From: [Actinobacillus] rossii
GTDB taxonomy: Bacteria > Pseudomonadota > Gammaproteobacteria > Enterobacterales > Pasteurellaceae
Length of the DNA stretch: 64,000 bases
Direction of reading: 5' to 3'
Assembly: GCA_900444965.1 (NCBI GenBank)
Contig: UFRQ01000003.1
Location: 1,984,001-2,048,000, forward strand
The notes under the pieces were generated by a model, which saw only the letters and a list, made by a program, of their open reading frames with translations, made no database searches and was not told the DNA's origin. Position numbers and translations under genes: made by a program. This document shows positions 43,471-63,315 of this stretch, piece by piece. Position 1 is the stretch's first letter, and each line of letters starts with the position of its first letter.

Positions 43471-43516
43471 AGAATACTGGAAAGAAAAAAAAGAAAAGGG
43501 GCAATGCCATTCAGCA
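43471..43516 (-). promoter_or_regulatory. Predicted phage late promoter before gp46
   Basis: Minus strand: TGCTGAATG (43516-43508), exactly 31 nt, then TATTCTG (-10 at 43476-43471). It shares layout with the sites at 55540-55585 and 63270-63315. The 9-mer here sits in a TATGC-N6-GCAT dyad, similar in form to Mor/C-type activator sites. Confidence 0.6.
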
Positions 43517-43523
43517 TAGCCCC
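43498..43523 (-). terminator. Terminator after gp45 that overlaps the late-promoter activator site
   Basis: A 10-bp stem GGGGCAATGC/GCATAGCCCC (one mismatch) has a 6-nt loop and on the minus strand is followed by TTTTCTTTTTTTTC. It ends the gp45 transcript and its stem is the presumed activator dyad. Confidence 0.75.
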
Positions 43524-43563
43524 ACAGTTAGAAATGAGAGAGATAATTACAAAGATGATGATG

Positions 43564-44139
43564 TTAATGCACCATCACCTTGTTCTCGGTGAGTATGGTT
43601 AGTAAAGATTTATCCCCGGCAGAAACATCCCCTTTAGCTTTCACATCCCCTTTAGCTTTCACATCTCCTTTGGTATTCATATCACCGTCAGCGTTAATTG
43701 AACCGGAAGCTTTGATTTCTGGTGTCAGGAAACTCACTTTAGTATTAGCCTTAACATTAAATTCTTCGCAATTCACTTCAATGATTTTCCCTTGTTTTAA
43801 GACAATGGATGCGCCTGATTGATTATAAACAGCTACTTCGCCGCCTTTAAGATTTTTAATTCTAAACTCACCATTTTCTGTGGCGATTACCACTCCATGC
43901 GATGTGGCGCCACCGATAGGAATAATAACAGCCTGCGTGTTGGCTGGCGGTACGGAAGTAAATCCGAACTGCTGCATAAACTCAAGATCAGAAATGATCT
44001 CACCCGAAAGACCTGACACTTGCGTTTTCTGAATATCATCCTTAGAATTCATTAAATTCAACGTTCCACGAAAGGCTTGTCGAATACCTTGAGCAATATT
44101 CTGTGCCGCTTGGCTAATTTGTTGGCTTAATCTTCGCAT
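43564..44139 (-). CDS. Baseplate spike protein, Mu gp45
   Basis: A 191-residue central spike protein (gpV/gp45 family) that punctures the outer membrane. The OB-fold part holds PIGGATSHGVVIATENGEF; the C-terminal beta-helix starts with the KGDVKAKGDVKAKGDVSAGD repeats. It follows gp44 directly. Confidence 0.88.
   Translation of the reverse strand: MRRLSQQISQAAQNIAQGIRQAFRGTLNLMNSKDDIQKTQVSGLSGEIISDLEFMQQFGFTSVPPANTQAVIIPIGGATSHGVVIATENGEFRIKNLKGGEVAVYNQSGASIVLKQGKIIEVNCEEFNVKANTKVSFLTPEIKASGSINADGDMNTKGDVKAKGDVKAKGDVSAGDKSLLTILTENKVMVH
43629..43664. repeat. 18-bp tandem repeat inside gp45
   Basis: Two perfect 18-bp units (CCCCTTTAGCTTTCACAT), followed by a decayed third. They encode KGDVKA-type hexapeptides of the spike helix. 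The unit is a multiple of three, so copy changes would lengthen the spike without breaking the frame. Confidence 0.85.
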
Positions 44140-44140
44140 A

Positions 44141-45292
44141 TCAATCCTTACTGGTGTCCGCTAAAATTTTTGTTTTTTTCTCTTTTTTCTTCTTATTCTT
44201 GCGCCCTTTTTTGCCTTTACGCTTACGGGCTTGCTCGGATTTTTCCACATAAGCATCAGGCGTCCAAACACCGTCTTCTTTAAAACGAAGTTCTGTCTGT
44301 GTACCACCACTTCGAGAAAGTGTAAATCGTCGTCCCATTAAGAAGAAAATGGCATCAATATCGTATTCTTCACAAATCACGTGCACGCGTTGACCAACTG
44401 ACCACAACACACCACTCTCAGTCTTATGATCTGACACGATAATCCGCAAATCAAAACTGTCCAGCTGACTATCGGATATATGTTTTTTAGCCCATTTTTT
44501 AAGTGCGGTTAAATCTTCCACATCAGGAACGACTACTGTTTTAGGCTTATATACTGGCACGTTCGGATCTGTGTAAACCCATTTCAAATCGTTCTTATTA
44601 CTATCACCCGAACGTCCATGTCTCTGCGCAAGAAATGTGATTTCACTAAAACGCTGTGATACATCAAAAGTTAGTTCAGCTTGAATAAAATTGTTCTTCA
44701 CACCATTTTTCATGCAGCACAACGTTGCAACGGGTTCACTCGAATAATCAGCGCCCCCGACAATCAACACGCCGTTTGGCTCAAACCAACAATGTAAACC
44801 GGCTGAATTAGCACATTTCATAATGGCATTCCATGCCGTTTCACCAACATCAATATCTACACGATCTAAAATAGGATTACTTTCTGCCTTGAGTTGCACT
44901 TTATTAATTCCTAGTGGAGCAACGATTTTCTTAACGGCATCTAATACAGTTAGACCTTTCACATTCAACTGTGGGGCAGAGCAATCAACTAAAATTGATG
45001 CCCGATCTCGACCATTAACAACAAAGGTGCGAGTAGTCTTATTAATACTATGACGTGTTGTATCAATAATACCTGTCATAATTGTCTCGCCATTAATTTT
45101 TATTACCGCCTCTTTACCTGATAAATCTTCAAATACGGTATGATTAGACGGTAGTCCAATTTCAAAGCTAAAGGCATCTGCCGGGATAAGGAAATCACTA
45201 TCCACGTCATAACTTTTCCATTTATTGTGTTGTGCGCCATCAATTTCTAACACAACATCGTTGAAGAAAGGCGCATTCTCATTAGATTGCAT
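44141..45292 (-). CDS. Baseplate hub protein, Mu gp44 (P; late control D-like)
   Basis: A 383-residue hub protein related to gpD/gp27. Conserved stretches: VVLEIDGAQHNKWKSYDV, GLTVLDAVKKIVAPLG and ETAWNAIMKCANSAGLHCW. The C-terminus is strongly basic (RKRKGKKGRKNKKKKEKK), unusually so, perhaps contacting DNA or the spike. A USS lies inside. Confidence 0.88.
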   Translation of the reverse strand: MQSNENAPFFNDVVLEIDGAQHNKWKSYDVDSDFLIPADAFSFEIGLPSNHTVFEDLSGKEAVIKINGETIMTGIIDTTRHSINKTTRTFVVNGRDRASILVDCSAPQLNVKGLTVLDAVKKIVAPLGINKVQLKAESNPILDRVDIDVGETAWNAIMKCANSAGLHCWFEPNGVLIVGGADYSSEPVATLCCMKNGVKNNFIQAELTFDVSQRFSEITFLAQRHGRSGDSNKNDLKWVYTDPNVPVYKPKTVVVPDVEDLTALKKWAKKHISDSQLDSFDLRIIVSDHKTESGVLWSVGQRVHVICEEYDIDAIFFLMGRRFTLSRSGGTQTELRFKEDGVWTPDAYVEKSEQARKRKGKKGRKNKKKKEKKTKILADTSKD

Positions 45293-45314
45293 AACTATTT
45301 AACACCGTTCCTTT

Positions 45315-46766
45315 CTAAATAAAATTCGGATAACGAATATGCGCATTTAACCGTAACAATTCGTTGGAACGCGTATAATCACCGTACAACCAATGCGCTT
45401 GTTGCTGCATTGTGCCTGTTTTTTCCACAATTCTTACAATCAAAGGCGGTTTTTGGTTAATAGCTGCAATTGATAATCTTGTAACAGCATGAGCCACATC
45501 TCTCAAACTCTCGCTTAATACCTGCGCATTCATGTAACTGTTATTCATTGGTGCATTCAAATAGGTAGATTCATCTTGTTTCTGTAACGCTCTCACTGTG
45601 TTCAAAGCATCAAGCAATAATAACCGCGTTTTTGTACAAAGATATTCCACTTCTGATGGCAGAATATCATCTGCCACTTCTTCAATTAATTGGGTCGCGA
45701 TTTTAGCTACCACGCCAGCACAAGCCACGCGCAATACGCACTCTAATAGCACCGCATCACTTTTAAGTACGCCCAATGAGTAAGATTGTATCGTTGCACT
45801 TCCACTGTTCTTCAGACGTGCAGCAACTTGAGCGGCAGTTGGTGCTTTTTCTACACCTTTAACAAGGTTTCGCGGATAATTTATCACGATATCTACTGCA
45901 TCAAGTACGGCATCGAAACGAGAACGGATGTTAAATACATCATCGGAACTCACCGGATTCTCGTCATCGTCATCGGAATCAATGATAAAGCTATTATCTC
46001 TCCCTTGGAGCAAACGCTGAGAAATTGTACTGCTGGTATGATTAGATTGACGAGAAATCTGTGATAATTCAGTTAAGCCATTATTCAAAATCAGCACTAA
46101 GTCTTCTACCGCATGGTTTGACTGTTTGGATAACGTGCTGGCGGTTACGCCAGACATCAACGTATAAGAGTTTTTATCTGCACCAAATAAATCGCGTATG
46201 CTTTCATAGACGCTGTAGATAATTTGCCACATTCCAATGACACGCGAACCTGAACTAAGTCCGGCTGTGATGGCTTCCATTGTCACACTATAATAGTCCA
46301 TCGCTTTATCCAAATACGAATTCACCTTAGAAAATGCACTATCCACAGCTGTTAATACAGAGTTTTCAAACACAAATATCGGTTGCATTTCAGATGCTTC
46401 TTTAAATTGCAACTCAAGTGTCGCATAATTGACATCGTCCGCATTGTGGTTGAAGTTTGCAAAGACACAAAGCATTTGGGGCATGCGTCCACGAATAGGA
46501 TGCACCAATACTGCTGGTTTATTGCTTTCTAAGGCTTTAAGAAGTGCTTTAAACTGACTAAAATAACCATCACCAAAAAACACGGCAGATAAACGCACGG
46601 TTTGCGGATTGAGCCCCATACTCTCAAGATCCGCACCATTAACAAAAGGATAGGTATGTTCAATAACTGCGCGCTCTAGCTGGTCATCAATACTCACCAC
46701 ATCAAACATCACACCGTTATAACTTGCCTGCTGAATCGGCATCGTCCAGCCTTGAAATAAACTCAT
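45315..46766 (-). CDS. DNA circularisation/tail protein, Mu gp43 (N)
   Basis: A 483-residue protein of the Mu N family. The N-terminal domain (GWTMPIQQASYNGVMFDVVSI...AVIEHTYPFVNGADLESMGL) is the annotated DNA-circularisation N-terminal domain, in fact a tail hub-proximal protein. It overlaps the tape-measure stop by one base. A shorter start at MPIQQASYNG is possible. Confidence 0.86.
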   Translation of the reverse strand: MSLFQGWTMPIQQASYNGVMFDVVSIDDQLERAVIEHTYPFVNGADLESMGLNPQTVRLSAVFFGDGYFSQFKALLKALESNKPAVLVHPIRGRMPQMLCVFANFNHNADDVNYATLELQFKEASEMQPIFVFENSVLTAVDSAFSKVNSYLDKAMDYYSVTMEAITAGLSSGSRVIGMWQIIYSVYESIRDLFGADKNSYTLMSGVTASTLSKQSNHAVEDLVLILNNGLTELSQISRQSNHTSSTISQRLLQGRDNSFIIDSDDDDENPVSSDDVFNIRSRFDAVLDAVDIVINYPRNLVKGVEKAPTAAQVAARLKNSGSATIQSYSLGVLKSDAVLLECVLRVACAGVVAKIATQLIEEVADDILPSEVEYLCTKTRLLLLDALNTVRALQKQDESTYLNAPMNNSYMNAQVLSESLRDVAHAVTRLSIAAINQKPPLIVRIVEKTGTMQQQAHWLYGDYTRSNELLRLNAHIRYPNFI

Positions 46767-49384
46767 TAGACACCTCGCTTAAAGTTCTGATACTGCTGCT
46801 CTGAGACTTGTTCAGCAACAACTCGACCTTCCAATTCTACGGTAATCTTATTCTGCAATGTCGTGGTCTGTGCCTGAATAGCAGATAAGAGTCCTGCTGA
46901 AATCGACTTTCCGAGCGACTGAATATCTGCCGTCAAAGTGGTTTGGAAGGTGTTCATTTGTTGTTCTTGACTTTGTGTTAACGGCGTGAAATCAATATTA
47001 GCAAGACTACCATCCCCCGCAGAAACCGCATTGCCTTTTAGTACCGAACTTTTACCTAGGTTAGGATTGTTTAACCCGGCATAAAACTTGTTCTGCACAA
47101 CTTGCCAGTCTGCCTTACCATCTAACACAGTCTTGGCATAAGCACGTTCTTCATCATTTGCCACCCAGGAACCAACGCCATTTAAGATGTTATTAGCTTT
47201 AATCTTTTGACGAGCTTCAAACTTACTGCGTTGTTCGCTAACACTTGCTTGTTGTTCAGGTGTTAACTCATGCCAATTCCGATTGAATGATGTTAGCATC
47301 TTGGCTTTTTCATCATCGCTCGAAAACCAACTATTAAGCTTTTTAAAATCGAGCTTAAATTTATTCTGCTTAAATTGTGCTGTTAAACGTTTCACTTCAT
47401 CAGGATTAGAACCGAACTTCTCAATATCCAACAAATACTTATCATCCGCCCAACCGTTAGAAACAGCTTTAGACGCAATCTCATAACGCTCTTTATCGCT
47501 TAACTTAGTATTATCCCAATGATACTCACGCATACGGCGTTCATCTGCATTTTCACTACTGGTTAGCATTGTCGCAGCACCTGCAACGCCAAGCGCACGA
47601 CTGCCCACATTCAACAGTTTGCCCCATTTACCGCCAGCAGCAACACGCCCATTTCCGCCAACCGTGGTTGCCACATCAATCGCCCCACCAACCGCATTTC
47701 CGCCTTTTCCTAAATTCAATAAGGCAAGAGAACCGGCGGCAGCAAATGCAGCTGTGCCTAAAATCTTAATACTATCTACTGCACCAACCATTGCCTGTGA
47801 AAGTGCTGGATATTGCTCACCATATTCCGTCATCTTCTGAGCAAGATCGGCTGTCCAATTTGTTACACTATTAAAATTCTCAACCTGCGTCATTTCATAC
47901 TTATTTCCTGCGCTCTGAAACTTAACCGCCGCTTGTTCACTAATAAATAACGCATCACGGTCAGTTTCTCCTTTGGCATTTATATAAGCTTCTTCTACAT
48001 TTTGCCCTGTTTGACGTTGTGAGCGGATACCGAACAACCCCAACCAAGCTTGTTGATCAGCCACCAACTCACCTACGCGAGAACCTTGTACATAATTTGC
48101 AACAGATTCTAAAGCTGAATTTCTCTCTCCTTGGCTTTGAGCTTTATCTACTAGTTGCTTAAGTTTCTGATATTCTTTATCTCCAACTAGAATATCATCC
48201 ACCACAGACAAGAATGCATCCACGGTATCCTGTCCTTTGTTCATATAACTCATCATAGATTTTTTTAAATCTACACCGTCATAATGCTTACCGTCTTTGC
48301 CAGTGTATTCAATTTTCTTGGCTCGGTTAAGGGTATCTTGTGAATTAACTTTCGACAAAAAATTCATTGTATTTGTTGCTGTTTCTGAGCTACCACCAGA
48401 AACGTTATAAATTTGTTGCAACATCTTGAACATTTTCTTTGCGCCATCCATACCCTCAAGACCAGCGCCCTTTGCTTTTGCAAATAAACTCGGAGCATAT
48501 TGCGCCATATCACGCAACTCAAAACCACCTGCCTTACCTGCCACATTGGCATAATCTAAGAAGTCTTGAATTTCATTTTCTTTTAAACCATATCCCAAAC
48601 CAGCATTAACTAGATTAGCAATATCTGTTGTGCTAGAACCTGTTGCCATTGCATTTTTTTGAATACTTGGCAATAAATTAAGTGCAGTATCTACACTTAC
48701 CTTTCCTTGAGATACAAGTGAACCCAAAGCTTCCATTGCAGTTTCTTTTGAACCACCATATTTCACAGTCGCATCTTTAATAACATTATGAATATTATCC
48801 ATTCCCGCTTTTTTACCTGCATTATCCCGATCTGCATAAGCAGTATTGGACAGATAAGCCAAAGCAAGATTGTAATCAGCCGTATTTTTAATAGGACGCG
48901 CCGCCAATGTTGCTCCAACGCTAACACCAGCCGCTACCCCCGTTGCTACTCGACCATATCCCATCATTTTTGACCCAAAACTTGGCGCAGGCATTTTCCC
49001 CATTTCCGCATTTAACTGCGCAATTTGCTGTCTTGATGCCGCATAAGCACGGTTAAGCTCTGTAGCAGATGCACGACCGCTACGTGCAAGGCGATTATAA
49101 GCGGCTTCTGTGCGTTGGATTTCACGTTGAATCTGATGTTCTGAGCGAATTCCCAAGGTTTGGCGCGTTTGCGCTAAACGCCGTGCATAGTTTTCTGCTT
49201 TACCTGATAAAGCACTTTGCAGCACGTCTGTCTGACGCGCAGCGTCTTGCTGTTCTTTTGCACCACGTTTTGCGGCATCAGTTGCACGCTTTGCCCCTTT
49301 TTCTACTTCATCGGCCACTTTCTTTAGACCCGCACTAGCCTGATCTTTTAAAGTAACCGCCATTTTCAAGTTCATATCTGCCAT
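46766..49384 (-). CDS. Tail tape measure protein, Mu gp42
   Basis: An 872-residue protein that sets tail length. The N-terminal 110 residues are coiled coil (many Ala, Lys, Gln), followed by the TP901-type core (TADYNLALAYLSNTAY, KETAMEALGSLVSQGKV) and glycine/alanine-rich hydrophobic segments near 545-600. At roughly 3 residues per nm it predicts a tail of the order of 130 nm. It follows the tail chaperone after a terminator. Confidence 0.93.
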   Translation of the reverse strand: MADMNLKMAVTLKDQASAGLKKVADEVEKGAKRATDAAKRGAKEQQDAARQTDVLQSALSGKAENYARRLAQTRQTLGIRSEHQIQREIQRTEAAYNRLARSGRASATELNRAYAASRQQIAQLNAEMGKMPAPSFGSKMMGYGRVATGVAAGVSVGATLAARPIKNTADYNLALAYLSNTAYADRDNAGKKAGMDNIHNVIKDATVKYGGSKETAMEALGSLVSQGKVSVDTALNLLPSIQKNAMATGSSTTDIANLVNAGLGYGLKENEIQDFLDYANVAGKAGGFELRDMAQYAPSLFAKAKGAGLEGMDGAKKMFKMLQQIYNVSGGSSETATNTMNFLSKVNSQDTLNRAKKIEYTGKDGKHYDGVDLKKSMMSYMNKGQDTVDAFLSVVDDILVGDKEYQKLKQLVDKAQSQGERNSALESVANYVQGSRVGELVADQQAWLGLFGIRSQRQTGQNVEEAYINAKGETDRDALFISEQAAVKFQSAGNKYEMTQVENFNSVTNWTADLAQKMTEYGEQYPALSQAMVGAVDSIKILGTAAFAAAGSLALLNLGKGGNAVGGAIDVATTVGGNGRVAAGGKWGKLLNVGSRALGVAGAATMLTSSENADERRMREYHWDNTKLSDKERYEIASKAVSNGWADDKYLLDIEKFGSNPDEVKRLTAQFKQNKFKLDFKKLNSWFSSDDEKAKMLTSFNRNWHELTPEQQASVSEQRSKFEARQKIKANNILNGVGSWVANDEERAYAKTVLDGKADWQVVQNKFYAGLNNPNLGKSSVLKGNAVSAGDGSLANIDFTPLTQSQEQQMNTFQTTLTADIQSLGKSISAGLLSAIQAQTTTLQNKITVELEGRVVAEQVSEQQYQNFKRGV

Positions 49385-49431
49385 AGTTCTTCACTCAAAA
49401 TTGTTTTAAATACCATTTAAAACCTATAAAA

Positions 49432-50399: not shown

Positions 50400-50409
50400 A
50401 CATATCCCC

Positions 50410-53530: not shown

Positions 53531-54451
53531 CTACTCAATGATTTGTGATGACACAACCACTTTTAAACGACCTTTTAAGATATTTGTTGTGCCGTTAATT
53601 ACTTCACCTTCACAAATCTGACGTGCTTTGAATTCCAATGCCGGCGGCACTAAAATGACATTTGGACGAATATTCAATAATTTACTGCCATCACCTTTAA
53701 GCGATTGCATTTTGGCAATCACCGCCATAATGTTCTCTGCGGTCAACTCCGTTTGCTCAACACGATGCGCTAATTGCCAGAAACCAAAACCAGCCGCACC
53801 ACGCGCACGCACACCCCATTCGTAGATGTCTTCATTGAAGACGGTATCCGATTTTGATGGGTCAAATTTGGTTTCGATTTCAGGGGCAGTACGCTCCTGC
53901 CAAATCAACGGTTTAATCGCATTCGTGGTATCAAAGATATAAAACGTTGGTGCAGCACTTGTAGTGCCGGTTGTAATATTGCTTTGCTCTGTTGATGAGC
54001 CTGTACCATCTACGTTTTCATAAACAGGATGGTCAGTGTCAAAGTAGTTTTGACCGTCATAACATAATGTTGCTTTACCTTCTTTGAGTAAGCCAAACAC
54101 TAAATCATCAGGCAATTCAGCGGCAGATTGTGCCGCTTGTTGCACCATTGGGCGGAATAATCCAACTTGGTCATCTTCAATATCCGTGCGCGGAATTCCA
54201 ACCGTGGCTTCGTATAATTTATTTTCAATGCTGGTGCCTTGGGCTTGCATTGCTTTGCGCTGACGTTTGCCTACCCATTCAATCAATTTCGGGAATTGAC
54301 TTAAAAAGCCGTAAGTGTTCACTTTAGTATTCGATGACACTTTCATAGCGATTAAATCCCATTGAGGTTTAATTAATGCTAACCCCGCAAGAAAATCTTT
54401 CTTAAATTGCATTTCAATCGCTTTTAACACTTCTGATTTCTTAAAGCTCAT
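53531..54451 (-). CDS. Major head protein (Mu T)
   Basis: A 306-residue capsid subunit of the Mu T family: FLSQFPKLIEWVGKRQRKAMQAQGTSIENKLYEATVGIPRTDIEDD-type N-domain, ATLCYDGQNYFDTDHPVY, and the C-terminal NVILVPPALEFKARQI. The start overlaps the protease/scaffold stop by one base. Confidence 0.94.
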   Translation of the reverse strand: MSFKKSEVLKAIEMQFKKDFLAGLALIKPQWDLIAMKVSSNTKVNTYGFLSQFPKLIEWVGKRQRKAMQAQGTSIENKLYEATVGIPRTDIEDDQVGLFRPMVQQAAQSAAELPDDLVFGLLKEGKATLCYDGQNYFDTDHPVYENVDGTGSSTEQSNITTGTTSAAPTFYIFDTTNAIKPLIWQERTAPEIETKFDPSKSDTVFNEDIYEWGVRARGAAGFGFWQLAHRVEQTELTAENIMAVIAKMQSLKGDGSKLLNIRPNVILVPPALEFKARQICEGEVINGTTNILKGRLKVVVSSQIIE

Positions 54452-54993
54452 TATTTTTGCTCCTTATGTTCTTTAATAAATTCCGCTTCCGTCATGCCTA
54501 AAGCACGCGCCGCCGCTTGTTCTGCTGCGCTTAACGCCACAACATTAAGGTTCGGGTTATCTTTCGCTTGCGCTTGACCACTTAATGCAGCAATAGCTGG
54601 AGCCTTGTCTAAATACGCACTTAATGCTTCCACGCTTAAACTTTCTGCCCATTCTTTTAGTGCAGGAGATAACTTGCCGTTGCTTAATGCGGCAGTAATT
54701 AACGCACCTTTTTTATCTGCATCACGTTCTGCTTTGATTGCATTTAAATCTGCTTGTAATACTACAACCTGTTCAACAGGCACATATTTAGCCGGATCCA
54801 CTTTGCCAGCTTGAGAACTTAATGCCGCGATATTGCTATCTTTCGCTTTAAGTTCCTTGTAAACTTGCGACAAGGCAACTTCAGATGTACCTTTGCTTTC
54901 TGCTAAGGCAAGCACATCCGCTTTAATTTCTTGCTCAGTGGCATCTTTTTTACCCATAAGCGCACATAAAGCCGCTAACAGCTCTTTATCCAT
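54451..54993 (-). CDS. Internal-start scaffold protein (Mu Z-like)
   Basis: An in-frame internal ATG (MDKELLAALCALMGKK) has a strong AAGGA 9 nt before it and lies exactly at the protease-scaffold junction. It would give a 180-residue scaffold, helical and Ala/Glu/Lys-rich, as Mu makes Z from within I. Evidence is position plus the ribosome site. Confidence 0.68.
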   Translation of the reverse strand: MDKELLAALCALMGKKDATEQEIKADVLALAESKGTSEVALSQVYKELKAKDSNIAALSSQAGKVDPAKYVPVEQVVVLQADLNAIKAERDADKKGALITAALSNGKLSPALKEWAESLSVEALSAYLDKAPAIAALSGQAQAKDNPNLNVVALSAAEQAAARALGMTEAEFIKEHKEQK

Positions 54994-55494
54994 GGTTTGA
55001 TTTCCTTCTGTTAAATCGAAGTGAGAACTTGCGGCAACAATGGCATCATCCATTCCATCTAAAGCCGGAACGTTTGTGAGTGCCGCATGGAAAATTTTGC
55101 GCACATAACCATCTCGGTCGTAGGCGAAGACTGCGGATATATAACGATATTCACCATTCTTAATATATTCTGCCGCTCTGTCTGTCCAACGCACGTCTGC
55201 AAAAATGCCTTGCGGGGTAAAGTACAAATACTCCATCCACCCTGCACTTGGAGCTTCTTTGCCATTGGTTTTGCTATGCAAAATCTGATGTTCATAGTCA
55301 ATCGGCAATGGATTACGCTGACTATTCGCCAACGCCACAATATCCGCCCCATTGCTATCGGCAACAATCCAAGCTGCCACATCAGTCGGTCGTCCGTCAG
55401 TGGCACGAAACTCCCCATAAGGCAAAAGCTGAATAGTCCCAGTTTTCGCTTGAGAAATTTCAAAGCCAGCAACGGCTAATTTGAGTTTATTCAT
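54451..55494 (-). CDS. Prohead protease with C-terminal scaffold (Mu I)
   Basis: A 347-residue protein. The N-terminal ~150 residues are the Mu I protease (IQLLPYGEFRATDGRP, NPLPIDYEHQILHSKTNGK, YRYISAVFAYDRDG, HAALTNVPALDGM); the rest is a helical, charged scaffold region. The ATG at 55494 starts the conserved MNKLKLAVAGFEIS; the frame upstream of it is hydrophobic noise. It lies just downstream of a predicted late promoter. Confidence 0.88.
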   Translation of the reverse strand: MNKLKLAVAGFEISQAKTGTIQLLPYGEFRATDGRPTDVAAWIVADSNGADIVALANSQRNPLPIDYEHQILHSKTNGKEAPSAGWMEYLYFTPQGIFADVRWTDRAAEYIKNGEYRYISAVFAYDRDGYVRKIFHAALTNVPALDGMDDAIVAASSHFDLTEGNQTMDKELLAALCALMGKKDATEQEIKADVLALAESKGTSEVALSQVYKELKAKDSNIAALSSQAGKVDPAKYVPVEQVVVLQADLNAIKAERDADKKGALITAALSNGKLSPALKEWAESLSVEALSAYLDKAPAIAALSGQAQAKDNPNLNVVALSAAEQAAARALGMTEAEFIKEHKEQK

Positions 55495-55539
55495 TACATA
55501 ACCAATCCTTTTCGTTAAAAAATCAGTAATTAGGATGGC

Positions 55540-55585
55540 AGAATATCGAATTGAGAAGAATGAAAAGAGAAGAGTGCATTCAGCA
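55540..55585 (-). promoter_or_regulatory. Predicted phage late promoter before the protease gene
   Basis: Minus strand: TGCTGAATG (55585-55577), exactly 31 nt, then TATTCTG (-10 at 55545-55540), about 46 nt before the gene start. It corresponds to the position of Mu P(I). The 9-mer lies in a short AGTGC/GCACT dyad. Confidence 0.6.
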
Positions 55586-55635: not shown

Positions 55636-55659
55636 GGGTTGCGCCAAATAACGCAACCC
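55636..55659 (-). terminator. Terminator between G and the protease gene
   Basis: An 8-bp perfect stem GGGTTGCG/CGCAACCC with an 8-nt loop is followed on the minus strand by TTTATTTTATTTTT. It ends transcription from the lysis-packaging-F-G block just before the next late promoter. Confidence 0.8.
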
Positions 55660-56300: not shown

Positions 56301-57593
56301 TTATTTATTTAATAGCTTTTCAAGTTCTTTATTTCTCATTTTTCGGAATGACAAAATAAAGAGTTCATTCTCCAACACTTTCAAAACTAGCATTTTTCCT
56401 TTTTTTATAAACATATACCGATCATGAAAGTCCTTTGCAGGCAATAAATAATCGGGCGTATTAATCATATCAGGTAAATCACTATATTCATTGGCATTAA
56501 AATCTTGCCCTTCACGACTATTAAACTGCTTAATTAATGTATCATCGGATAGCCACACTGTAGATGTTTTAGCATTTATTTTGGTTTTGCTTTCTTTTGA
56601 TAAAACCCCAGCAGCAAATTTAAAGTTAAAGCTCAACTTATTGCGGATATTAACTACTTGCTCCGTAGTTAATTTGCCGTTTAATTGATTGACATCTTTA
56701 ATACTTTCAATTTCTTTTTTCAACCGTTTAAAATTATGTAAAAACTCCCCACCTATCATCTCCACTTTTGCAAATTGATGTGCCAGTTTTTCTGGGTACA
56801 AATCAAGATTTGGACGATAACTTAACCGCCCAATGTTGTAATCAAATCCCTTGTCGGTAGTGCGGATTGAACCGTCGGGTAGTTTAAAGCCTACTGTTTT
56901 TTCCACGTTGCCTTGTTTATCTGCAGGACGGTCAATCTCTACAAGGTTTTGACTGCTGTCATCGGGTTTATCTATGCCTTTGCGCTTTAAATCACGGTCC
57001 GCAAGAGCGATCACTGTGCAACGGCAATTAAACCCGTTTGGAGGATAAAAGGTTGCCCAAAATGGATCATCATAGCGGTAAATTCGCCCATGTAGTGCCA
57101 TGTGCGCAGGACGAGTGCGATTATCGCCTACCGCAGAGTATTGCCAATAAGGGCGGTTATCCACGTTATCCATCAAGCGTTGATAACGTCCGGCGGAGTA
57201 AGCAGCTTGTGTATTCACTCGAAAAATGGTATTCAAGCGGCGGGGAGTGCCGAAATATTCCCCGGTTTTCGGGTCGGCGAGCTGTTTGCCGTCAATGCCG
57301 CGGCTAACTTTTTTATCATGCGCAAAGACCCAGCCTTTTCGCTCAAACTCCGCCATGATATCCTTTTTCCATTGGGAAAAAGATATGCCATTTTTTACCG
57401 CACTTTCGAGACTGGCGTAAATATCTTTTGTCATTTCCAGGCTATCTAAACGCGCGATGGTGGTTGCTCGAGCCAGTGCGCTGTCGTAGAGCTCTTTTTT
57501 AAATACCTTGGAGGCAAGCAGTTTTTTCTGATGTAAGAAATCTACCGCCTCTTTGGGCTCAAGCCCGATTAAAAACTTAGGTGCACTAAGCAT
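56301..57593 (-). CDS. Minor head protein F with C-terminal PBECR-type nuclease domain
   Basis: 430 residues in two parts. Residues 1 to about 270 are the Mu F/SPP1 gp7 head morphogenesis domain, with signature RTRPAHMALHGRIYRYDDP and YPPNGFNCRCTV. Residues about 290-430 resemble the phage-Barnase-EndoU-ColicinE5/D-RelE-like (PBECR) nuclease domains known to be appended to such proteins: STVWLSDDTLIKQFNSREG, MINTPDYLL and a final ELFILSFRKM strand. The nuclease assignment is by pattern only. F proteins sit at the portal, so the domain could be ejected with DNA. The start overlaps the portal stop by 8 bp. Confidence 0.82.
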   Translation of the reverse strand: MLSAPKFLIGLEPKEAVDFLHQKKLLASKVFKKELYDSALARATTIARLDSLEMTKDIYASLESAVKNGISFSQWKKDIMAEFERKGWVFAHDKKVSRGIDGKQLADPKTGEYFGTPRRLNTIFRVNTQAAYSAGRYQRLMDNVDNRPYWQYSAVGDNRTRPAHMALHGRIYRYDDPFWATFYPPNGFNCRCTVIALADRDLKRKGIDKPDDSSQNLVEIDRPADKQGNVEKTVGFKLPDGSIRTTDKGFDYNIGRLSYRPNLDLYPEKLAHQFAKVEMIGGEFLHNFKRLKKEIESIKDVNQLNGKLTTEQVVNIRNKLSFNFKFAAGVLSKESKTKINAKTSTVWLSDDTLIKQFNSREGQDFNANEYSDLPDMINTPDYLLPAKDFHDRYMFIKKGKMLVLKVLENELFILSFRKMRNKELEKLLNK

Positions 57594-59208
57594 GGTTTGC
57601 TCCTAATAAATCCGCAATAAAGAGTGCATTAGCAAGATAGGCTTGATGTTGCTCACTTTGTAATTGCGGATAAATCTCGGCGAGTTTATCGCTTGCCTCA
57701 TCATAGCTTTCGCAAGCCATTAATGCCGCTACGGCGGTTTGTACAATAGGATCTAACTGCTTATTAAAATCCACATTCGCAAAGGCATCATTGAGTGCAT
57801 TATCCAACGCATCTTGAGGATCGTTGCTGTCAGGATTGGCAGTGAGTGCTGCAGACTGGCAACCACAAGGGCAACCTTTGCCGTGATGTAGTCCAGAAAG
57901 TGCGGTGGATTTTAATGCCGTTTTATCATCGGTTTGAACGTTGTTTAAAACCGTTTTTAAAATCGGTTCATCGTCCTGCGCTTCAGGAATGCCTAATTTT
58001 TCTAACGCCCAACTAACAGGAATAGGCAATCCACAGCCCACCAGTTTTGGCAACGCATCGGCGAATTGGGTTAAATCCGCAGGTTCTTTTGTATCAAACT
58101 CAAAGTGCGGAATGCGGCTTGGATCGATATTCGGATCATAGTTAATTTGACAATATGCCAAAATAATTTGCTGGGTTAGTGTCTGCGCAATTTGCTTTGC
58201 GTCACTCACCAATAAATCGCGTCGCACTTCGTTGTGCACTTGTCCGAGCGCATTGGTTGAGCTTTTGCCATCTGCGCCACTGGTGAGTGTTTGTCCTAAA
58301 ATCATGCGCGCAATGGATTTCTCGCACCAATCTACCATTTGTAAAAATGGATTAGATTGCCCTGTGCTATTGTTTGCCGCATTGTGCAATTCCACTTTCA
58401 TGCTTTCAGGCATAATACCTGCCGCGTTATGCCCAATTTGCGCCAAAGCGCGTAAAAGCGTACGCTTTTCATCAGGGGTAGCACCTGCGCCGTATTTACC
58501 GATACGGATTGGCATGCCATAAAGCTCTAAAAACTCGGCAAAATCGTGCACCGAATAGTGCTTAAACATGTACAGCCATACGAGCGTGCGATATAAGCCT
58601 TCACGGGCTAATTGCACCGAGCGCGATTTATGGGTATGTACCACCCAACCAAAGGCTCGCAACGGCTCACCAGTGGGGTTATCAGGGGTTTTAAGCAATA
58701 AATTATCGTCTTTATCAAGTCTAAACCATGATTGTGGAATATGCTTAAAACGTGCGGGCAACTGTTTGCCGTCTTTCTGCGTCCACGCAATTTCCAGCGC
58801 GGAAAAACCGTGTCCCACCGCGTCCATGCAGTCAATCAGCAAGTTGTCTGTGTAGCCAATTTGATTAAACAACGCGTCCACATCTTCAGTGATTTGCTCT
58901 TCTTGTGGCGTGGCGTCTTTAGGCGCTTTAATTGACCAATCCAGCGTTAAAATCGCGCGTTTACGCGTAGCGATATTGGCGCCGATATCACCATCTTGCT
59001 CTTCAATATCCATATAAAGCTCGTGCTGTGCGGTAATATCGCCATTTTCCGCATCTTCCATCAAGGATTTCAATTTGGCAGGCGTAATCTTATGGCTAGG
59101 GTGATCTGAAATAATTCGCCCTGCGTCTGTCACCTGCGCTTCTTCGGTTTGCGTAGGCTCAAACATCGCCTTAATTTTATTTTTGATAGTGTCGTAAAAT
59201 TTCGCCAT
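57586..59208 (-). CDS. Portal protein, Mu gp29 (DUF935)
   Basis: A 540-residue portal through which DNA is packaged. DUF935 stretches include RKRAILTLDWSIKAP, VHTHKSRSVQLAREGLYRTLVWLYMFKHYSV and FAEFLELYGMPIRIGKYG. A Cys cluster (GKGCPCGC) near 460 is common in Haemophilus versions. The ATG at 59208 (MAKFYDTI) has GGAAG at 7 nt and is preferred over one 15 nt upstream inside the terminase gene. Confidence 0.92.
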   Translation of the reverse strand: MAKFYDTIKNKIKAMFEPTQTEEAQVTDAGRIISDHPSHKITPAKLKSLMEDAENGDITAQHELYMDIEEQDGDIGANIATRKRAILTLDWSIKAPKDATPQEEQITEDVDALFNQIGYTDNLLIDCMDAVGHGFSALEIAWTQKDGKQLPARFKHIPQSWFRLDKDDNLLLKTPDNPTGEPLRAFGWVVHTHKSRSVQLAREGLYRTLVWLYMFKHYSVHDFAEFLELYGMPIRIGKYGAGATPDEKRTLLRALAQIGHNAAGIMPESMKVELHNAANNSTGQSNPFLQMVDWCEKSIARMILGQTLTSGADGKSSTNALGQVHNEVRRDLLVSDAKQIAQTLTQQIILAYCQINYDPNIDPSRIPHFEFDTKEPADLTQFADALPKLVGCGLPIPVSWALEKLGIPEAQDDEPILKTVLNNVQTDDKTALKSTALSGLHHGKGCPCGCQSAALTANPDSNDPQDALDNALNDAFANVDFNKQLDPIVQTAVAALMACESYDEASDKLAEIYPQLQSEQHQAYLANALFIADLLGANHA

Positions 59209-59210
59209 GT

Positions 59211-60854
59211 TTAATGCTTCCATTTGCTTTCGTAATCGTCAAAATCATCGTCATAACCGCCAGTCTCATTGTCCAATGCTTGCCACTCAATCGGTGCGGA
59301 TGAGCTCACTGCATTGCGCCAGAGCATTTCCAACGCATCAGGACCGTCATCATGATCCGCTTTCGGAAAATGTCTAAGTTGTGTTTCGAGAGTAGATTGT
59401 GACCGATGTAATAAAATCAGTCCGTTTGCGATGTGCGGTTGCAGGCTTTCAATACGTAACATTTTGTCGCTATTGGGTTTGGTTGCCGTAGCCGGCACCG
59501 GCTTGCCACGCGCGGCAGAGCGTTTAATCAGTTCCGTTTGTAAAAATTCTTGGAATTGCACCGTCTCCACAAACCAGCGGTGACAGTTATATTGCGTGTG
59601 CAAGCGGATCACATCTTCGATGATTAAATCAGGTACGCGTTTTTTAATCTGGGCTTCAACCACGTATAATTTGCCAGTGGCACGGTGATAACCGCCCACT
59701 AAAATGGCGCTTGGGTCACGGCTTGCTCCCGCTTTGCCCATTGATGGGTCAAGCGCACCAAAGTAAATCAAGTCGTTCGGTAGTTCCGTCCAATACTGGA
59801 TACTGTTAGCAAAAATGGCATCATCACCTGAAATCGGATCATTTTGATACTCGGAATCAAATGCCGAATGTCCATCAGACGCGCGGATTTTCATCAGATA
59901 CAAGATAGGACGGGCGAGCCAAGAGACAACCGCGCCTTTGTCCATTTCCGCTTTGTGTTGCTGATAGAATAGGTCGGAGAGTGTATCATCATCGCCGTCT
60001 TCAGATAAAAAGATGTTCTCCCATTCGTCCCACAGCGCCATGTTGTCAGGCATGCGTAAAATGGCTTTAAACCGCACGCGTTTCCAGCCTTTGGTGCTTA
60101 AAATACGGTTGAGCACGCTGTCATAATGCAAGATAGTACCCACATAAATCACATCAAACTTTTCACCTGCCGCGCCAAGTTTTAGCACGGCTTTCAAAAT
60201 CCAGTCATGCAACTTATTGCGCTGTTCCGGTGTTTGCACGGATTCATCGTTTTCAATATCATCGAGCACCACTAAATCAGGACGATACGCCCCATGACGT
60301 CGACCACGCAATTTTTGTCCTGCACCGACAGCTTCCACTTTCTGATTTTTGCTGGTTAAAATCGCCCCGGCGCGCCATACTTTACCCGGAGTTAATTCTG
60401 GAAAATCAATCGCCAAGCGCGGGTTAGATTCGATTTCAACCTTAATTGCTTCCAGCATGCCGTAGGCTTGTTCTTTGGTATCCATCGCGATGATGATGTA
60501 CTTTTTCAGATCGCACACCATATTCCACAAAGGGAATAATTGGGTACAGATAGTAGATTTAGCTTCACCACGGGGCGCGGCAATGGCTTGCCGAACGGAT
60601 TTAGTTTTATCCGAAACGGATTGCGGCAACTGCTCAAACAGGTATTCGTGTAGTTGGGATTTATGCTCGCTCCGCACATAATGCGGGAAATACGATTGCA
60701 CAAAAAACTCAAAACCATCGGGGTTGAGCACTTTGTTACGTCTTTCCACAATCGCTTGCGGGCTGTCATCCCAGCCTTCGAAATTGGCTTCGATATTGCG
60801 CTGTAAATCCGCGCGCAAGCGTTCCAGTTCGAGCTCAAATTCTTTTTTGTTCAT
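59211..60854 (-). CDS. Terminase large subunit, Mu gp28
   Basis: A 547-residue packaging motor. The ATPase part has the Walker A-like APRGEAKSTI and Walker B LVVLDDIEND; the C-terminal nuclease begins with FGALDPSMGKAG and continues with VVEAQIKK and the HDDGPDALEML acidic motif. All core motifs are intact. It follows gp27 and a 40-codon membrane peptide gene. Confidence 0.94.
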   Translation of the reverse strand: MNKKEFELELERLRADLQRNIEANFEGWDDSPQAIVERRNKVLNPDGFEFFVQSYFPHYVRSEHKSQLHEYLFEQLPQSVSDKTKSVRQAIAAPRGEAKSTICTQLFPLWNMVCDLKKYIIIAMDTKEQAYGMLEAIKVEIESNPRLAIDFPELTPGKVWRAGAILTSKNQKVEAVGAGQKLRGRRHGAYRPDLVVLDDIENDESVQTPEQRNKLHDWILKAVLKLGAAGEKFDVIYVGTILHYDSVLNRILSTKGWKRVRFKAILRMPDNMALWDEWENIFLSEDGDDDTLSDLFYQQHKAEMDKGAVVSWLARPILYLMKIRASDGHSAFDSEYQNDPISGDDAIFANSIQYWTELPNDLIYFGALDPSMGKAGASRDPSAILVGGYHRATGKLYVVEAQIKKRVPDLIIEDVIRLHTQYNCHRWFVETVQFQEFLQTELIKRSAARGKPVPATATKPNSDKMLRIESLQPHIANGLILLHRSQSTLETQLRHFPKADHDDGPDALEMLWRNAVSSSAPIEWQALDNETGGYDDDFDDYESKWKH

Positions 60855-60957
60855 CCGTTTTTAATCCAACACTAACGCTAAAAAAATAAACCAGCCCCCA
60901 AACCTTTGCAATCATTGATAGCAAGAGCAAAGCAAGTAGTAAGTAAATCACAGCCAT
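60835..60957 (-). CDS. Small predicted membrane protein (40 aa)
   Basis: The start ATG overlaps the gp27 stop (TAATG), and the stop lies 20 bp inside the terminase gene. The product is MAVIYLLLALLLLSMIAK followed by VWGLVYFFSVSVGL and a charged tail: one or two hydrophobic helices. It fills the 102-bp gap between two packaging genes. Translational coupling supports it being real; function is unknown. Confidence 0.55.
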   Translation of the reverse strand: MAVIYLLLALLLLSMIAKVWGLVYFFSVSVGLKTDEQKRI

Positions 60958-61457
60958 TATTTAAACTCCTTTTGGATTTGCACTTCCAATTCATCAAGCA
61001 TTTCTAAAAATTCAGGCAATAAGTGCGGTTTTTTGGTTTTAACCAAATTCGCCATCATTTCAATCACGCGCAGTGCAGTGGCAATCGCACTGGTTTCTGG
61101 TAACAGTTTTTTACTGGATGCAGTCATTTTGGCAAAACTGTCAGCAAGAGCACTTAAGGCTTCCACTTTCTCTGCCGTGCTTAAATCTTGGTTTTCTTCA
61201 AGTTCCGTCATTAAAGTGCGGTATTTAATTAGAAAACCGGCTAGTAACCCTTGCGCAATGTTTTCGATTCCGCCGCTTGCCATCACTTGAACATCGCGAG
61301 CCTTTTCCCAGTTGTCGCCGTCTTTTTCCGCGGCGGTTTTCCAACGTCGCGCCGTGCCGAATGAGACTCCTGCTTTTTCTGCAGCTTGTTCTAGGCTTAA
61401 ACGGTCAAAGACATAATAACGGCGCACAAACGCACGTGTTTTTTCATCGTGTGCCAT
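60957..61457 (-). CDS. Terminase small subunit-like protein, Mu gp27 (DUF1804)
   Basis: A 166-residue protein with an N-terminal helix-turn-helix (LSLEQAAEKAGVSFGTARRWK) and a helical rest, as in small terminase subunits. It is directly upstream of the large-subunit region. Two USS copies lie inside. Confidence 0.87.
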   Translation of the reverse strand: MAHDEKTRAFVRRYYVFDRLSLEQAAEKAGVSFGTARRWKTAAEKDGDNWEKARDVQVMASGGIENIAQGLLAGFLIKYRTLMTELEENQDLSTAEKVEALSALADSFAKMTASSKKLLPETSAIATALRVIEMMANLVKTKKPHLLPEFLEMLDELEVQIQKEFK

Positions 61458-61712
61458 TTATCCCCCGAATTTTAAGCGGATAAACTCAATACCGATGGCA
61501 ACCAGACCACCACCGACACCACCGGCTAAAATGGCTTGATTGCGTGTTTTCTGGCGCATATCATCTAAATCCATTTGCAAAGCTTTGACTTGCTGTTGCA
61601 GTAAGACAATATCTGTGTTTTGTTGATCCACTTTGTCATTAATGCGCTCGGTCAAACTTAAAATTAAGTCCACCTTTTCATTAATTGATTTTTTCCCTGT
61701 GCGTCTTGTCAT
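61458..61712 (-). CDS. Small coiled-coil membrane protein (Mu gp26 position)
   Basis: 84 residues: a basic N-terminus, a coiled coil (about 12-55, LTERINDKVDQQNTDIVLLQQQVKALQ) and a C-terminal hydrophobic, glycine-rich segment (AILAGGVGGGLVAIGIEF). Function is unknown. It abuts gp27 and overlaps the preceding gene by 4 bp. Confidence 0.72.
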   Translation of the reverse strand: MTRRTGKKSINEKVDLILSLTERINDKVDQQNTDIVLLQQQVKALQMDLDDMRQKTRNQAILAGGVGGGLVAIGIEFIRLKFGG

Positions 61713-61963
61713 TTGTCTGCCTTTTTATCGAGTTTAGTATCAATTTTCTCTAATTTATCCATAATTTGATTCAGTTGCGTTTCCAGTGAGCGCGTCACCT
61801 GACCTGCCATTTCTTTGGTTTGGTATTTTTCTTCCACGGTTTTAATATTGTCAGAAAGCGTTTTAAAATCCGCCTCCAATCGCTTAAACCAAAGCCCGAT
61901 AAAAAATGTGGCAATCCCCACTAAAAAGTTAAAAATCATCATGCCGCTAATTTGCACTTCCAT
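61709..61963 (-). CDS. Small membrane-anchored coiled-coil protein (Mu gp25 position)
   Basis: 84 residues: N-terminal membrane segment (FNFLVGIATFFIGLWFKRL) and a long C-terminal coiled coil (EADFKTL to KLDKKADK). The layout recalls DUF2730 proteins of Mu-like phages, but I am not certain of the family. It overlaps the Rz1-like gene end by 17 bp. Confidence 0.7.
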   Translation of the reverse strand: MEVQISGMMIFNFLVGIATFFIGLWFKRLEADFKTLSDNIKTVEEKYQTKEMAGQVTRSLETQLNQIMDKLEKIDTKLDKKADK

Positions 61964-62156
61964 TTTTCGGCTCCTTGCAAATTGTGCGATAAGTGTCGTT
62001 ATGCACTTTGATTTGACGCAGCGTTTCTGTGGTATCTTGGCGACTGGCTTTTATTACGTTAAACCCCGTACAGGCGGTGTTAGTCACGTAGGTCGTTGGA
62101 TTGCTGCAAGCTATCAATAAGCTCATTGCGGTTACGAGTAATAGTGCTTTCTTCAT
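61947..62156 (-). CDS. Rz1-like outer-membrane spanin lipoprotein
   Basis: A 69-residue lipoprotein: MKKALLLVTAMSLLIAC with the acylated Cys at 17, then CTGFNVIKASRQDTTETLRQIKVHNDTY, typical of phage LysC/Rz1-type proteins. It starts inside the Rz-like gene in another frame, the classical spanin arrangement, and pairs with it to fuse the membranes at lysis. Confidence 0.78.
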   Translation of the reverse strand: MKKALLLVTAMSLLIACSNPTTYVTNTACTGFNVIKASRQDTTETLRQIKVHNDTYRTICKEPKNGSAN

Positions 62157-62331
62157 TTTTCTTTCTCACTTCTGCATTTTTTACTTGGGTTTCTGCAGTG
62201 TCTTTTTGTGCTTTTAACGCCGCATTGGTCTTTAGAATCTTTTCGATTTCATTGTTTGCTTGTTTTAACTTAAAGGCGCCGTAGCAAACGACAATAAACA
62301 CAACGCTCGATGCGATAAAAATCCAGCTCAT
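62080..62331 (-). CDS. Rz-like inner-membrane spanin
   Basis: An 83-residue protein with an N-terminal membrane anchor (WIFIASSVVFIVVCYGAFKL) and a periplasmic coiled coil rich in Lys/Glu/Asn. Its last 77 bp overlap the Rz1-like gene in another frame. It follows the holin gene with a 4-bp overlap. Confidence 0.76.
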   Translation of the reverse strand: MSWIFIASSVVFIVVCYGAFKLKQANNEIEKILKTNAALKAQKDTAETQVKNAEVRKKNEESTITRNRNELIDSLQQSNDLRD

Positions 62332-62555
62332 TTCTCACTCTCCTTAGCTGCTTTATATGCAGACACCGCGCCTTTCGTTGCCACCAAACCGCCACCGAAT
62401 CCTGCTAAATACAAGAATAAATCAGGTACATAACCGCGGTCTAAGTAAACGCTATAAATCAACGTGCCTGCCAGAGTTAAAAAGGTTAAGAATTGCACGG
62501 TTGTTGTGGTAGATAAACGCCCATCCGCATTGGTTACAAGTTCTTTTAGTGCCAT
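62328..62555 (-). CDS. Putative holin (two membrane segments)
   Basis: 75 residues with two hydrophobic helices (VQFLTFLTLAGTLIYSVYL and LFLYLAGFGGGLVATKGAV) and a charged C-terminus, located between the lysozyme and spanin genes. This suits a class II holin that releases the lysozyme; the family looks like DUF2644 of Haemophilus Mu-like prophages. Function is inferred from topology and position. Confidence 0.7.
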   Translation of the reverse strand: MALKELVTNADGRLSTTTTVQFLTFLTLAGTLIYSVYLDRGYVPDLFLYLAGFGGGLVATKGAVSAYKAAKESEK

Positions 62556-62717
62556 TTATGCCCCCAATTTCAAATATAACGCCATAGCAGGGGTTAATTT
62601 CCCTTGCTTGCAATATGACCACGCATTTTTGCTCATAAAGTGCGGTCGGTTTTGATGCACTTTTTGTTTAGGTTTGAACCAATTAAAAATACGTTTAAAA
62701 ACACCTACAAATTTCAT
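62556..62717 (-). CDS. Small basic phage protein (53 aa)
   Basis: It starts MKFVGVFKRIFNWFKPKQ and ends MALYLKLGA; AAGGGGG lies just before the ATG, and the stop immediately precedes the holin ATG. It is rich in Lys, Phe and Trp, and the N-terminus could form an amphipathic helix. A USS lies within it. It fills the gap between lysozyme and holin; function is unknown. Confidence 0.6.
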   Translation of the reverse strand: MKFVGVFKRIFNWFKPKQKVHQNRPHFMSKNAWSYCKQGKLTPAMALYLKLGA

Positions 62718-62728
62718 TAAATCCCCCT

Positions 62729-63235
62729 TTAATCATTATCTTTTGCGCCATAACGTAAATTTTCTGCAATACGATTCACCCAACCTTTGCCATAGGTCGA
62801 AAAACGGCTTAATTTGGTATAAAACAACAATCGTTCCGCATTAAATCGCATTAAGACATCGTTTTCACTCATGGACTTAATCGCTGCAAGAGATAACGTA
62901 CCAATCACGCCATCATCCGCCACACCAACCGCGCGCTGTAACATACGGCTGGCATTGCCCATGCCATGATTGATGCAGGCGTCAAAAAATTGAAACGCAA
63001 TTGCCAACGGCATTTTTTCGCATTGATAACGTTCCCAAAAGGCTTTACGATAAATGGCTTTCGCTTGTTCACGCGTCATATCTCGCATTGCTCCGATATA
63101 ACCATTTTCTAAAGCGGTACGATGAGTAATTCCCCAGTTAGTTTCGCCGCCCGGGTCACGCGGGTCATTCACATAACCGCCTTCATGCCCCATGCAACGG
63201 TCAAACACCTGATCAAAAGTTAAAATTTTTGACAT
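62729..63235 (-). CDS. Phage lysozyme/N-acetylmuramidase (GH108)
   Basis: A 168-residue endolysin of the glycosyl hydrolase 108 family. The catalytic Glu lies in CMGHEGGYVNDPRDPGGETNWGIT; AFQFFDACINHGMGNASRMLQRAVG and VADDGVIG form the peptidoglycan-binding end. The ATG at 63235 (MSKILTFDQ) has AAGGG at 8 nt; a longer frame upstream crosses a hairpin and promoter and is rejected. There is no signal peptide, so a holin is needed. Confidence 0.9.
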   Translation of the reverse strand: MSKILTFDQVFDRCMGHEGGYVNDPRDPGGETNWGITHRTALENGYIGAMRDMTREQAKAIYRKAFWERYQCEKMPLAIAFQFFDACINHGMGNASRMLQRAVGVADDGVIGTLSLAAIKSMSENDVLMRFNAERLLFYTKLSRFSTYGKGWVNRIAENLRYGAKDND

Positions 63236-63242
63236 AAAAAAA

Positions 63243-63268
63243 GCCCTTAATGATTTTTCATTAAGGGC
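63243..63268 (-). promoter_or_regulatory. Hairpin with T-run over the lysozyme ribosome site
   Basis: A perfect 11-bp stem GCCCTTAATGA/TCATTAAGGGC with a 4-nt loop. On the minus strand it is followed by seven T and then the lysozyme ATG. The ribosome site AAGGG (63248-63244) is in the second arm. It can act as a terminator of upstream transcripts and hides the ribosome site. Confidence 0.8.
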
Positions 63269-63269
63269 A

Positions 63270-63315
63270 ATTATGAAAAAAGAAGAGAACAAGAAAGAGC
63301 CAATGGCATTCAGCA
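63270..63315 (-). promoter_or_regulatory. Predicted phage late promoter before lysozyme
   Basis: Minus strand: TGCTGAATG (63315-63307), exactly 31 nt, then CATAAT (-10 at 63275-63270). The predicted start near 63262 is inside the first arm of the downstream hairpin. It corresponds to Mu P(lys). Confidence 0.62.

Follow-up and report, generated by a model that had tools for sequence, protein, structure and literature searches.

Whether three copies of a short repeat in a Mu-like prophage mark the activator-dependent promoters of its late genes, and why transcription from them would begin on a start codon or inside a hairpin, are the questions raised by this locus. The window, that is the whole stretch of 64,000 nucleotides (nt) from [Actinobacillus] rossii analysed here (contig UFRQ01000003.1, positions 1,984,001 to 2,048,000), carries the late half of the prophage on its minus strand, at about 37.3-63.5 kb. 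In all likelihood the three sites are activator-dependent late promoters of the class known from Mu. It is also probable that they are activated by a Mor/C-family protein and that, given where they start, the leading gene of every late operon can be read chiefly from the late RNA of that operon. The sites, their spacing, their conservation and the placement of the predicted +1 with respect to hairpins and start codons were read from the sequence and from comparison with relatives; activation by a Mor/C-family protein, the exact +1 and the effect on translation are suggested by them.

The three sites and their probable activator

The preliminary description of this DNA had reported TGCTGAATG on the minus strand at 63315-63307, 55585-55577 and 43516-43508, upstream of lys, the I protease gene and gp46, in each case separated by 31 nt from a -10-like hexamer (CATAAT, TATTCT and TATTCT, respectively) without a -35 element. 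The sequence search confirmed the positions, spacers and hexamers, and a sigma-70 scan gave no -35/-10 pair at the three hexamers. The +1 positions are predictions, set 7 nt after the -10 according to the usual distance.

63298..63315, minus strand: putative activator operator of the lys promoter, TGCTGAATGCCATTGGCT, at -52 to -35
63270..63275, minus strand: -10 hexamer CATAAT of the lys promoter, predicted +1 at 63263
62729..63235, minus strand: lys, endolysin (Glyco_hydro_108), ATG at predicted +29
55568..55585, minus strand: putative activator operator of the I promoter, TGCTGAATGCACTCTTCT, at -52 to -35
55540..55545, minus strand: -10 hexamer TATTCT of the I promoter, predicted +1 at 55533
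54451..55494, minus strand: gene I, Mu-like head protease/scaffold (PF10123)
43499..43516, minus strand: putative activator operator of the gp46 promoter, TGCTGAATGGCATTGCCC, at -52 to -35
43471..43476, minus strand: -10 hexamer TATTCT of the gp46 promoter, predicted +1 at 43464
43114..43464, minus strand: gp46, baseplate wedge protein (PF07409), ATG begins at predicted +1

Shuffled sequences were expected to hold 0.72 copies of TGCTGAATG, and at least four copies occurred in none of 100 shuffles. The fourth exact copy in the window (36882-36874) lies within the coding region of a PBP_like_2 (pstS-like) gene and has AAATGG at the place of the -10. The pattern TGCTGAATG-N28..34-TATNNT was matched five times in the whole 2.66 Mb genome, by the I and gp46 sites of two prophage copies and by one site elsewhere, and its reversed control once; the lys site is outside this set because CATAAT does not fit the pattern. 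A weight matrix built of 74 sites from other phages ranked the three sites first, third and fifth among all positions on both strands of the window. A candidate for a fourth, mom-like late promoter at 59401 had a similar score (12.8) and a poor -10, and was rejected. The dyad TGC...GCA centred near -46, earlier described as common to the sites, was present at I (TGC-N5-GCA) and gp46 (TGC-N6-GCA) and absent at lys, and was rejected as a conserved element on account of this inconsistency. The dyad common to the relatives is centred at -43.5, and its right half is degenerate in the window phage.

A candidate for the cognate Mor/C protein, which had been proposed to lie beyond the window, was found in a second, near-identical prophage of the same genome (copy 2), which carries the same three sites. 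The identity of the two copies is 97.4, 99.5 and 99.8% in the three largest blocks and 92.9% in the fourth (1.6 kb). The 69 bases around the I site and around the gp46 site are identical in both copies, and the lys sites have one base difference, upstream of the operator. Directly upstream of the lys promoter, copy 2 has a 140-residue Mor/C-family gene (L010:2392-2814), the product of which matches PHROG 836, 'late transcriptional activator' (E 1.1e-34), and PF08765 just below the cut-off (E 2.6e-5; 24.6 bits against 24.9). PF08765 was matched by 25 of 26 aligned activators at E 0.001, the best at 7.6e-11, and the modelled activator has a C-terminal helix-turn-helix, as in the Mor/C family. 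When the activator profile was compared with the PDB, RNA polymerase-Mu C cryo-electron microscopy complexes (9l0x, 9vw8) and Mor structures (1rr7, 9l0y) were matched; the three best sequence matches were weak (E 0.012 to 0.21) and located in the C-terminal half.

63328..63537, minus strand: remnant of a Mor/C-family late activator gene, about residues 69/73-140, first half missing
63534..64000, minus strand: insertion sequence (IS) element with rve transposase in the activator gene of the window copy, continuing past the window end to about 64735

The remnant in the window corresponds to activator residues 69-140 and contains one stop; the IS (63534-64735) and a deletion have removed the rest of the gene, its first half. 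The window prophage is therefore probably unable to switch on its late genes alone; they would run only with an activator supplied in trans, and copy 2 could supply it. The same IS is present in both copies at different points (63328-64735; L010:2392-4290): in copy 2 it lies in or beside a neighbouring 111-residue gene, and in copy 1, that of the window, it replaces the first half of the activator. Further copies of the IS are situated at about 7663-8852 and 24008-25179. The genome also includes a further Mor homologue (L001, C3:2154242-2154559), and no lys gene was seen in the 300 bases following it.

Recurrence of the sites in related phages

The activator was detected in 32 of 140 Pasteurellaceae genomes with 38 matches, two of them in this genome. 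The survey covered 35 of the 36 other activator loci and 28 of the 41 gp46 loci, and copy 2 was also counted; the gp46 matches outside it were the two of this genome and 11 unaligned ones, among which that of the third prophage described below was inspected separately, and a partial activator match in G123 was also left out. Loci L028, L029, L031-L035, L037, L038 and L044 were outside the site tables as redundant or short, and the lys region of the Klebsiella phage was taken from the deposited record. An operator with GAA at the right place was present in 34 of 36 lys regions, the distant activator matches G130b and G065b being without a site and counted as misses, and in all 29 I and all 29 gp46 regions. 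All three sites were carried by each of the 26 prophages with all three regions in hand, a few near-identical ones included. The 31-nt spacing of the window was kept at 33 of 34 lys, 27 of 29 I and 28 of 29 gp46 sites; as a point against giving this agreement full weight, the lys and I sites were chosen by best score among gaps of 20 to 22, any gap other than 21 being slightly penalised, and the common spacing was thus favoured.

With the target phage left out of the matrix, the three promoters took the top three places in the whole records of the Mannheimia phage 3927AP2 (for which also three close relatives were excluded), the Haemophilus phage SuMu and the Klebsiella phage. For VW-6B, first and second place went to lys and I, and for MP22, first and third place to I and orf19a. 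The whole-record scan did not find the Mu promoters with this matrix, because the Mu operator differs.

In the ungapped alignment from the gp46 ATG, which included 27 non-redundant upstreams (of 32), the -10 at -12..-7 had T in 24, A in 25 and T in 26 at its fixed positions, and GAA at -48..-46 had G in 26, A in 27 and A in 26. Also the right half is visible (T in 22 at -40, C in 23 at -39), and the dyad reads (T/G)GAA-N4-(T/C)TC(C/A) with its centre at -43.5. The operator varies by phage, mostly in step at the three promoters (TGCTGAA, TGTGGAA, TACTGAA, TGTTGAA), and the element common to the clade is TGNNGAA and not the literal 9-mer. The early assignment of the sites to lys, I and gp46 stood, as did the contrast of gp46 with Mu; far from being peculiar to this phage, the gp46 position is the rule in the clade.

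Among 30 activators, base -49 of the operator (T or G) tracks residue 90 (F or L/I) with one exception and residue 123 (G or A), and base -51 (G or A) tracks residue 106, which is never R in the A class, and residue 120. Residues 106, 120 and 123 are located in the two helices of the modelled helix-turn-helix. G121 and G125 have almost the same I promoter and differ in operator class and residue 123. On the opposite side, residue 123 departs from the rule in five of the 30 activators, and the tree needs three operator changes at -49, of which the supported branches force one. With so few forced changes the covariation is suggestive and no proof, and phylogenetic proof of it was rejected for too few independent changes.

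Predicted late starts on start codons and inside hairpins

According to the mechanism proposed here, a Mor/C-family activator would bind the dyad at about -43.5, beside a -10 without a -35, and switch on each late promoter. At lys and I, the late RNA would start inside the 5' arm of a hairpin that covers the start region in read-through RNA, the lys hairpin in such RNA being also terminator-like, and at gp46 the RNA would start at the AUG itself and be leaderless. The first gene of each late operon would then be readable mainly from its own late RNA.

63243..63268, minus strand: terminator-like hairpin and T run, 5' arm spanning the predicted lys +1, second of 30 listed sites
55502..55538, minus strand: hairpin CCATCCT...AGGATTGG, 5' arm split by the predicted I +1, fold of -7.6 kcal/mol for the stretch

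The 3' arm of the lys hairpin includes TAAGG 9 nt before the lys ATG, and that of the I hairpin overlaps the Shine-Dalgarno sequence of I. A hairpin was counted as split when three or more of the ten bases preceding the predicted +1 paired with RNA downstream of it. This was so for every one of the 36 non-redundant lys promoters, compared to 20% at other boundaries, and for 21 of 29 I promoters, compared to 28%. At lys (n = 36) the mean folding energy was -13.3 kcal/mol with an RNA start at -6 and -3.2 kcal/mol with a start at 0; the corresponding values at I (n = 28 and 24) were -9.0 and -3.6 kcal/mol. In the 15 nt preceding the start codon, the probability of being unpaired averaged 0.23, 0.43 and 0.53 at lys and 0.37, 0.42 and 0.57 at I with RNA starts at -24, -6 and 0, respectively. 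The 3' arm often includes a Shine-Dalgarno-like stretch, and a T run follows the lys hairpin in 35 of 36 cases; read-through RNA would therefore end there or keep the start hidden.

Outside the clade, moving the RNA start to the predicted +1 changed the fold, in comparisons made without a shuffled control, from -14.7 to -6.6 at Mu lys, from -18.2 to -5.8 at Mu I, from -19.8 to -7.3 at Klebsiella lys and from -21.7 to -6.1 at VW-6B lys. The Mu -10 elements were placed here from their equal distance to a common CATAA; the Mu late promoters were reportedly mapped by Margolin et al. in 1989. A third Mu-like prophage of the same genome (L016-L018, C3:995001-1050000) is more distant, has a Mor-type activator and a repeated operator of its own, TCCGCAAACTCAA, which occurs at lys and I and within gp45, and shows a hairpin-split lys start. 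Its fold, again without a shuffled control, changed from -22.9 to -9.1 at lys and from -12.1 to -8.2 at I, the latter apparently leaderless.

The predicted gp46 +1 coincides with the A of the ATG, and the mRNA should therefore be leaderless. A scan of viral contigs with a pattern that fixed the gp46 start and not its upstream gave 53 contigs with 27 distinct 60-base upstreams, some of them from phages also in the survey. GAA at -48..-46 was present in all 27, TA...T at -12..-7 in 26 and both in 26, and none of the 27 had a Shine-Dalgarno-like tetramer. The predicted +1 coincides with the deposited start of the gp46 coding sequence in 3927AP2 (29094), SuMu (30517) and the Klebsiella phage (29800), with that of I in VW-6B (17655), and with that of orf19a in MP22 (9627), where the site is weak and has 32-nt spacing. 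The deposited I start of the Klebsiella phage is 1 nt off the predicted +1, and by eye both sites of D3112 are arranged in this way. The predicted +1 of MP22 I (18651) adjoins an in-frame ATG (18652) that lies 42 codons upstream of the annotated start, and the extra N-terminal residues resemble, in our reading, those of other I proteins. The annotated start of MP22 I (L027:18652-18778) is thus probably 42 codons too late, a misannotation attributable to a leaderless start without a Shine-Dalgarno sequence.

Several observations weigh against the reading of activated promoters with such starts. Matrix matches of high rank were left unexplained in the window (14602, ranked second) and within the top three of VW-6B (7474) and MP22 (2415), and the Foldseek match of the activator model to Mor was not significant (1rr7, E 1.7). 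The split-arm test failed at I in eight of 29 phages; in SuMu, L039 and G054b the failure may come from a start codon taken too early, and the SuMu record annotates that early start. The gain in openness of the start region at lys and I is moderate. At gp46 the arrangement is shifted by 1 nt in G031, and in G053 no -10 occupies the exact position. The reduction in synonymous variation around the start of gp46 is weak (p 0.024), and RNA-level constraint on the first gp46 codons was rejected on this weak evidence.

The late promoters may be real and the lys and I hairpins only terminators packed against the next promoter, without any translational effect; this explanation is possible, if rather unlikely. 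The overlap of signals usual in compact genomes, the T runs at lys, the moderate gain in openness and the positions of the terminator-like sites in the late region are all in line with it.

55636..55659, minus strand: terminator-like hairpin just upstream of the I operator, first of the 30 listed sites in 43400-63390, probably closing the operon preceding I
43498..43523, minus strand: hairpin GGGGC.ATGC..GCAT.GCCCC and T run overlapping the gp46 operator, fold of -16.7 kcal/mol, probable terminator of the operon preceding gp46

Terminator-like sites in 43400-63390 numbered 30, compared to 19.4 in shuffles, and the first two listed are at late promoters; the hairpin at 43498..43523 is absent from this list. 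A gp46 hairpin of -8 kcal/mol or stronger overlapping the operator was present in 14 of 28 phages (the window phage included) versus 152 of 1400 shuffled segments, and Rfam gave no match in 43000-64000. Terminators alone, however, do not account for the many I hairpins that by eye have no T run and yet place their 3' arm at the Shine-Dalgarno sequence, nor for the energy step just before the predicted +1 at both lys and I. Also the Mu lys, Mu I and three other lys promoters compared above lose most of their structure at the predicted +1, in those folds without a shuffled control.

A second alternative, that transcription starts a few bases off and that the gp46 leader is very short or the AUG is lost and a later codon used, is improbable. 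It draws on the +1 having been set by the usual distance and on the deviations in G031 and G053. On the other hand, gp46 is conserved from its first codons with silent changes at codons 4, 8, 9, 10 and 12, and this AUG is therefore likely the start. The offset from the -10 to the gp46 start is constant in 26 of the 27 viral upstreams, and the lack of a Shine-Dalgarno-like tetramer before gp46 argues in the same direction.

The preliminary description had offered the literal 9-mer as a means of finding the promoters across the Pasteurellaceae. The 9-mer with a -10 was found at scattered places in 51 of 140 genomes, reversed-pattern controls also matched, and among the matches listed outside this genome none was a surveyed late promoter. 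As a test (in six and then 140 genomes) the literal 9-mer was rejected, because only TGNNGAA is common to the relatives and because the matches listed outside this genome look like chance. That the three 9-mers of the window are likewise chance or a copied repeat without promoter function is very hard to sustain, given that each of the 26 prophages has the degenerate operator at these three positions and that its sites come out on top when the whole records of 3927AP2, SuMu and the Klebsiella phage are ranked. The reading as Mor/C-activated late promoters is supported by the activator at the expected place and by the recurrence of the three sites.

A wider rule for the Mu-like supergroup, according to which selection puts the late +1 on the AUG or in the 5' arm of a hairpin and the first gene of a late operon is translated only from the RNA of its own promoter, has about an even chance of being correct. 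If true, it would span Mu (lys, I), D3112/MP22, VW-6B and the Klebsiella and Pasteurellaceae phages despite their differing operators, and it would add a second, translational lock on lysis and head genes.

Comparison with known systems and further features of the prophage

The system resembles that of Mu (Plys, PI, PP, Pmom and the Mor-activated Pm) in its Mor/C-family activator, in the dyad at about -43.5 beside a -10 without a -35, in promoters at lys and I, and in an activator gene immediately preceding lys. For Mu Pm, passages of PMC4287176 describe the Mor site as a dyad from -51 to -36, with its centre at -43.5 and no -35. Unlike in Mu, the third promoter is at gp46 and not at P, the operator sequence differs, and no fourth (mom) site was found in the matrix scan of the prophage. 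Also unlike in Mu, the two prophage copies gave one activator gene, with no separate middle tier looked for.

In T4 gene e, as outlined in part of PMC3014915, late RNA without the 5' part of an inhibitory hairpin is translated, and in read-through RNA the start is hidden. Here too, the late RNA is predicted to begin within the 5' strand of a hairpin over the start region. The differences are another phage and another type of late promoter, a lys hairpin that is also terminator-like, and the recurrence of the arrangement at I. Leaderless phage messages as such are already known, phage transcripts being in the wording of one passage 'often leaderless' (PMC5312081). The predicted gp46 mRNA is like the leaderless mRNAs of bacteria and phages in having its AUG at the 5' end and no Shine-Dalgarno sequence, and unlike them in that the prediction concerns the activator-dependent late promoter of a baseplate gene and stays in register across a phage family.

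No report of leaderless or hairpin-split late transcripts of Mu-like phages was found in the searchable literature, most subscription journals being outside its scope, and the passages available of the SuMu and Mu lysis papers (PMC3447690, PMC9239132) contain none. Within the searchable papers, the activator with its promoter set, the in-register leaderless gp46 and the repeated hairpin-internal late starts seem to be new. 3927AP2 and SuMu are said in a passage of PMC4553209 to lack C, experiments being needed to find its replacement; for these phages a candidate activator, an operator and three targets can now be named. Natural operator-activator pairs of differing operator class are also available, and the layouts suggest double gating of Mu-like late genes, by transcription and translation.

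Pfam names in the late region include endolysin, portal, F, G-like tail completion, I, gpT, sheath, tape measure, DNA circularisation, gp44, gp45, gp46 and gp47-like proteins. The open reading frame (ORF) at 59211-60854 has no Pfam match and was taken as the terminase by analogy with the gene order in 3927AP2. The F-like head protein (56301-57593) has a C-terminal PBECR3 domain, a family described as nuclease-like. The window prophage is apparently inserted in a pstS-like gene, as the flanking ORFs (36369-37211 and L009:10574-10849) both match PBP_like_2 with successive parts of the profile.

Between G and I, at 55660-55710, there is a repeated TTTAAAACG-type stretch that is present also in relatives. 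The Mu record marks a gyrase cut site between G and I, and by this analogy the stretch is a possible counterpart of the strong gyrase site of Mu. In 3927AP2 (L023:28985-29040), an inverted pair resembling DNA uptake signals (ACAAGCGGTC) forms the hairpin that immediately precedes the gp46 operator.

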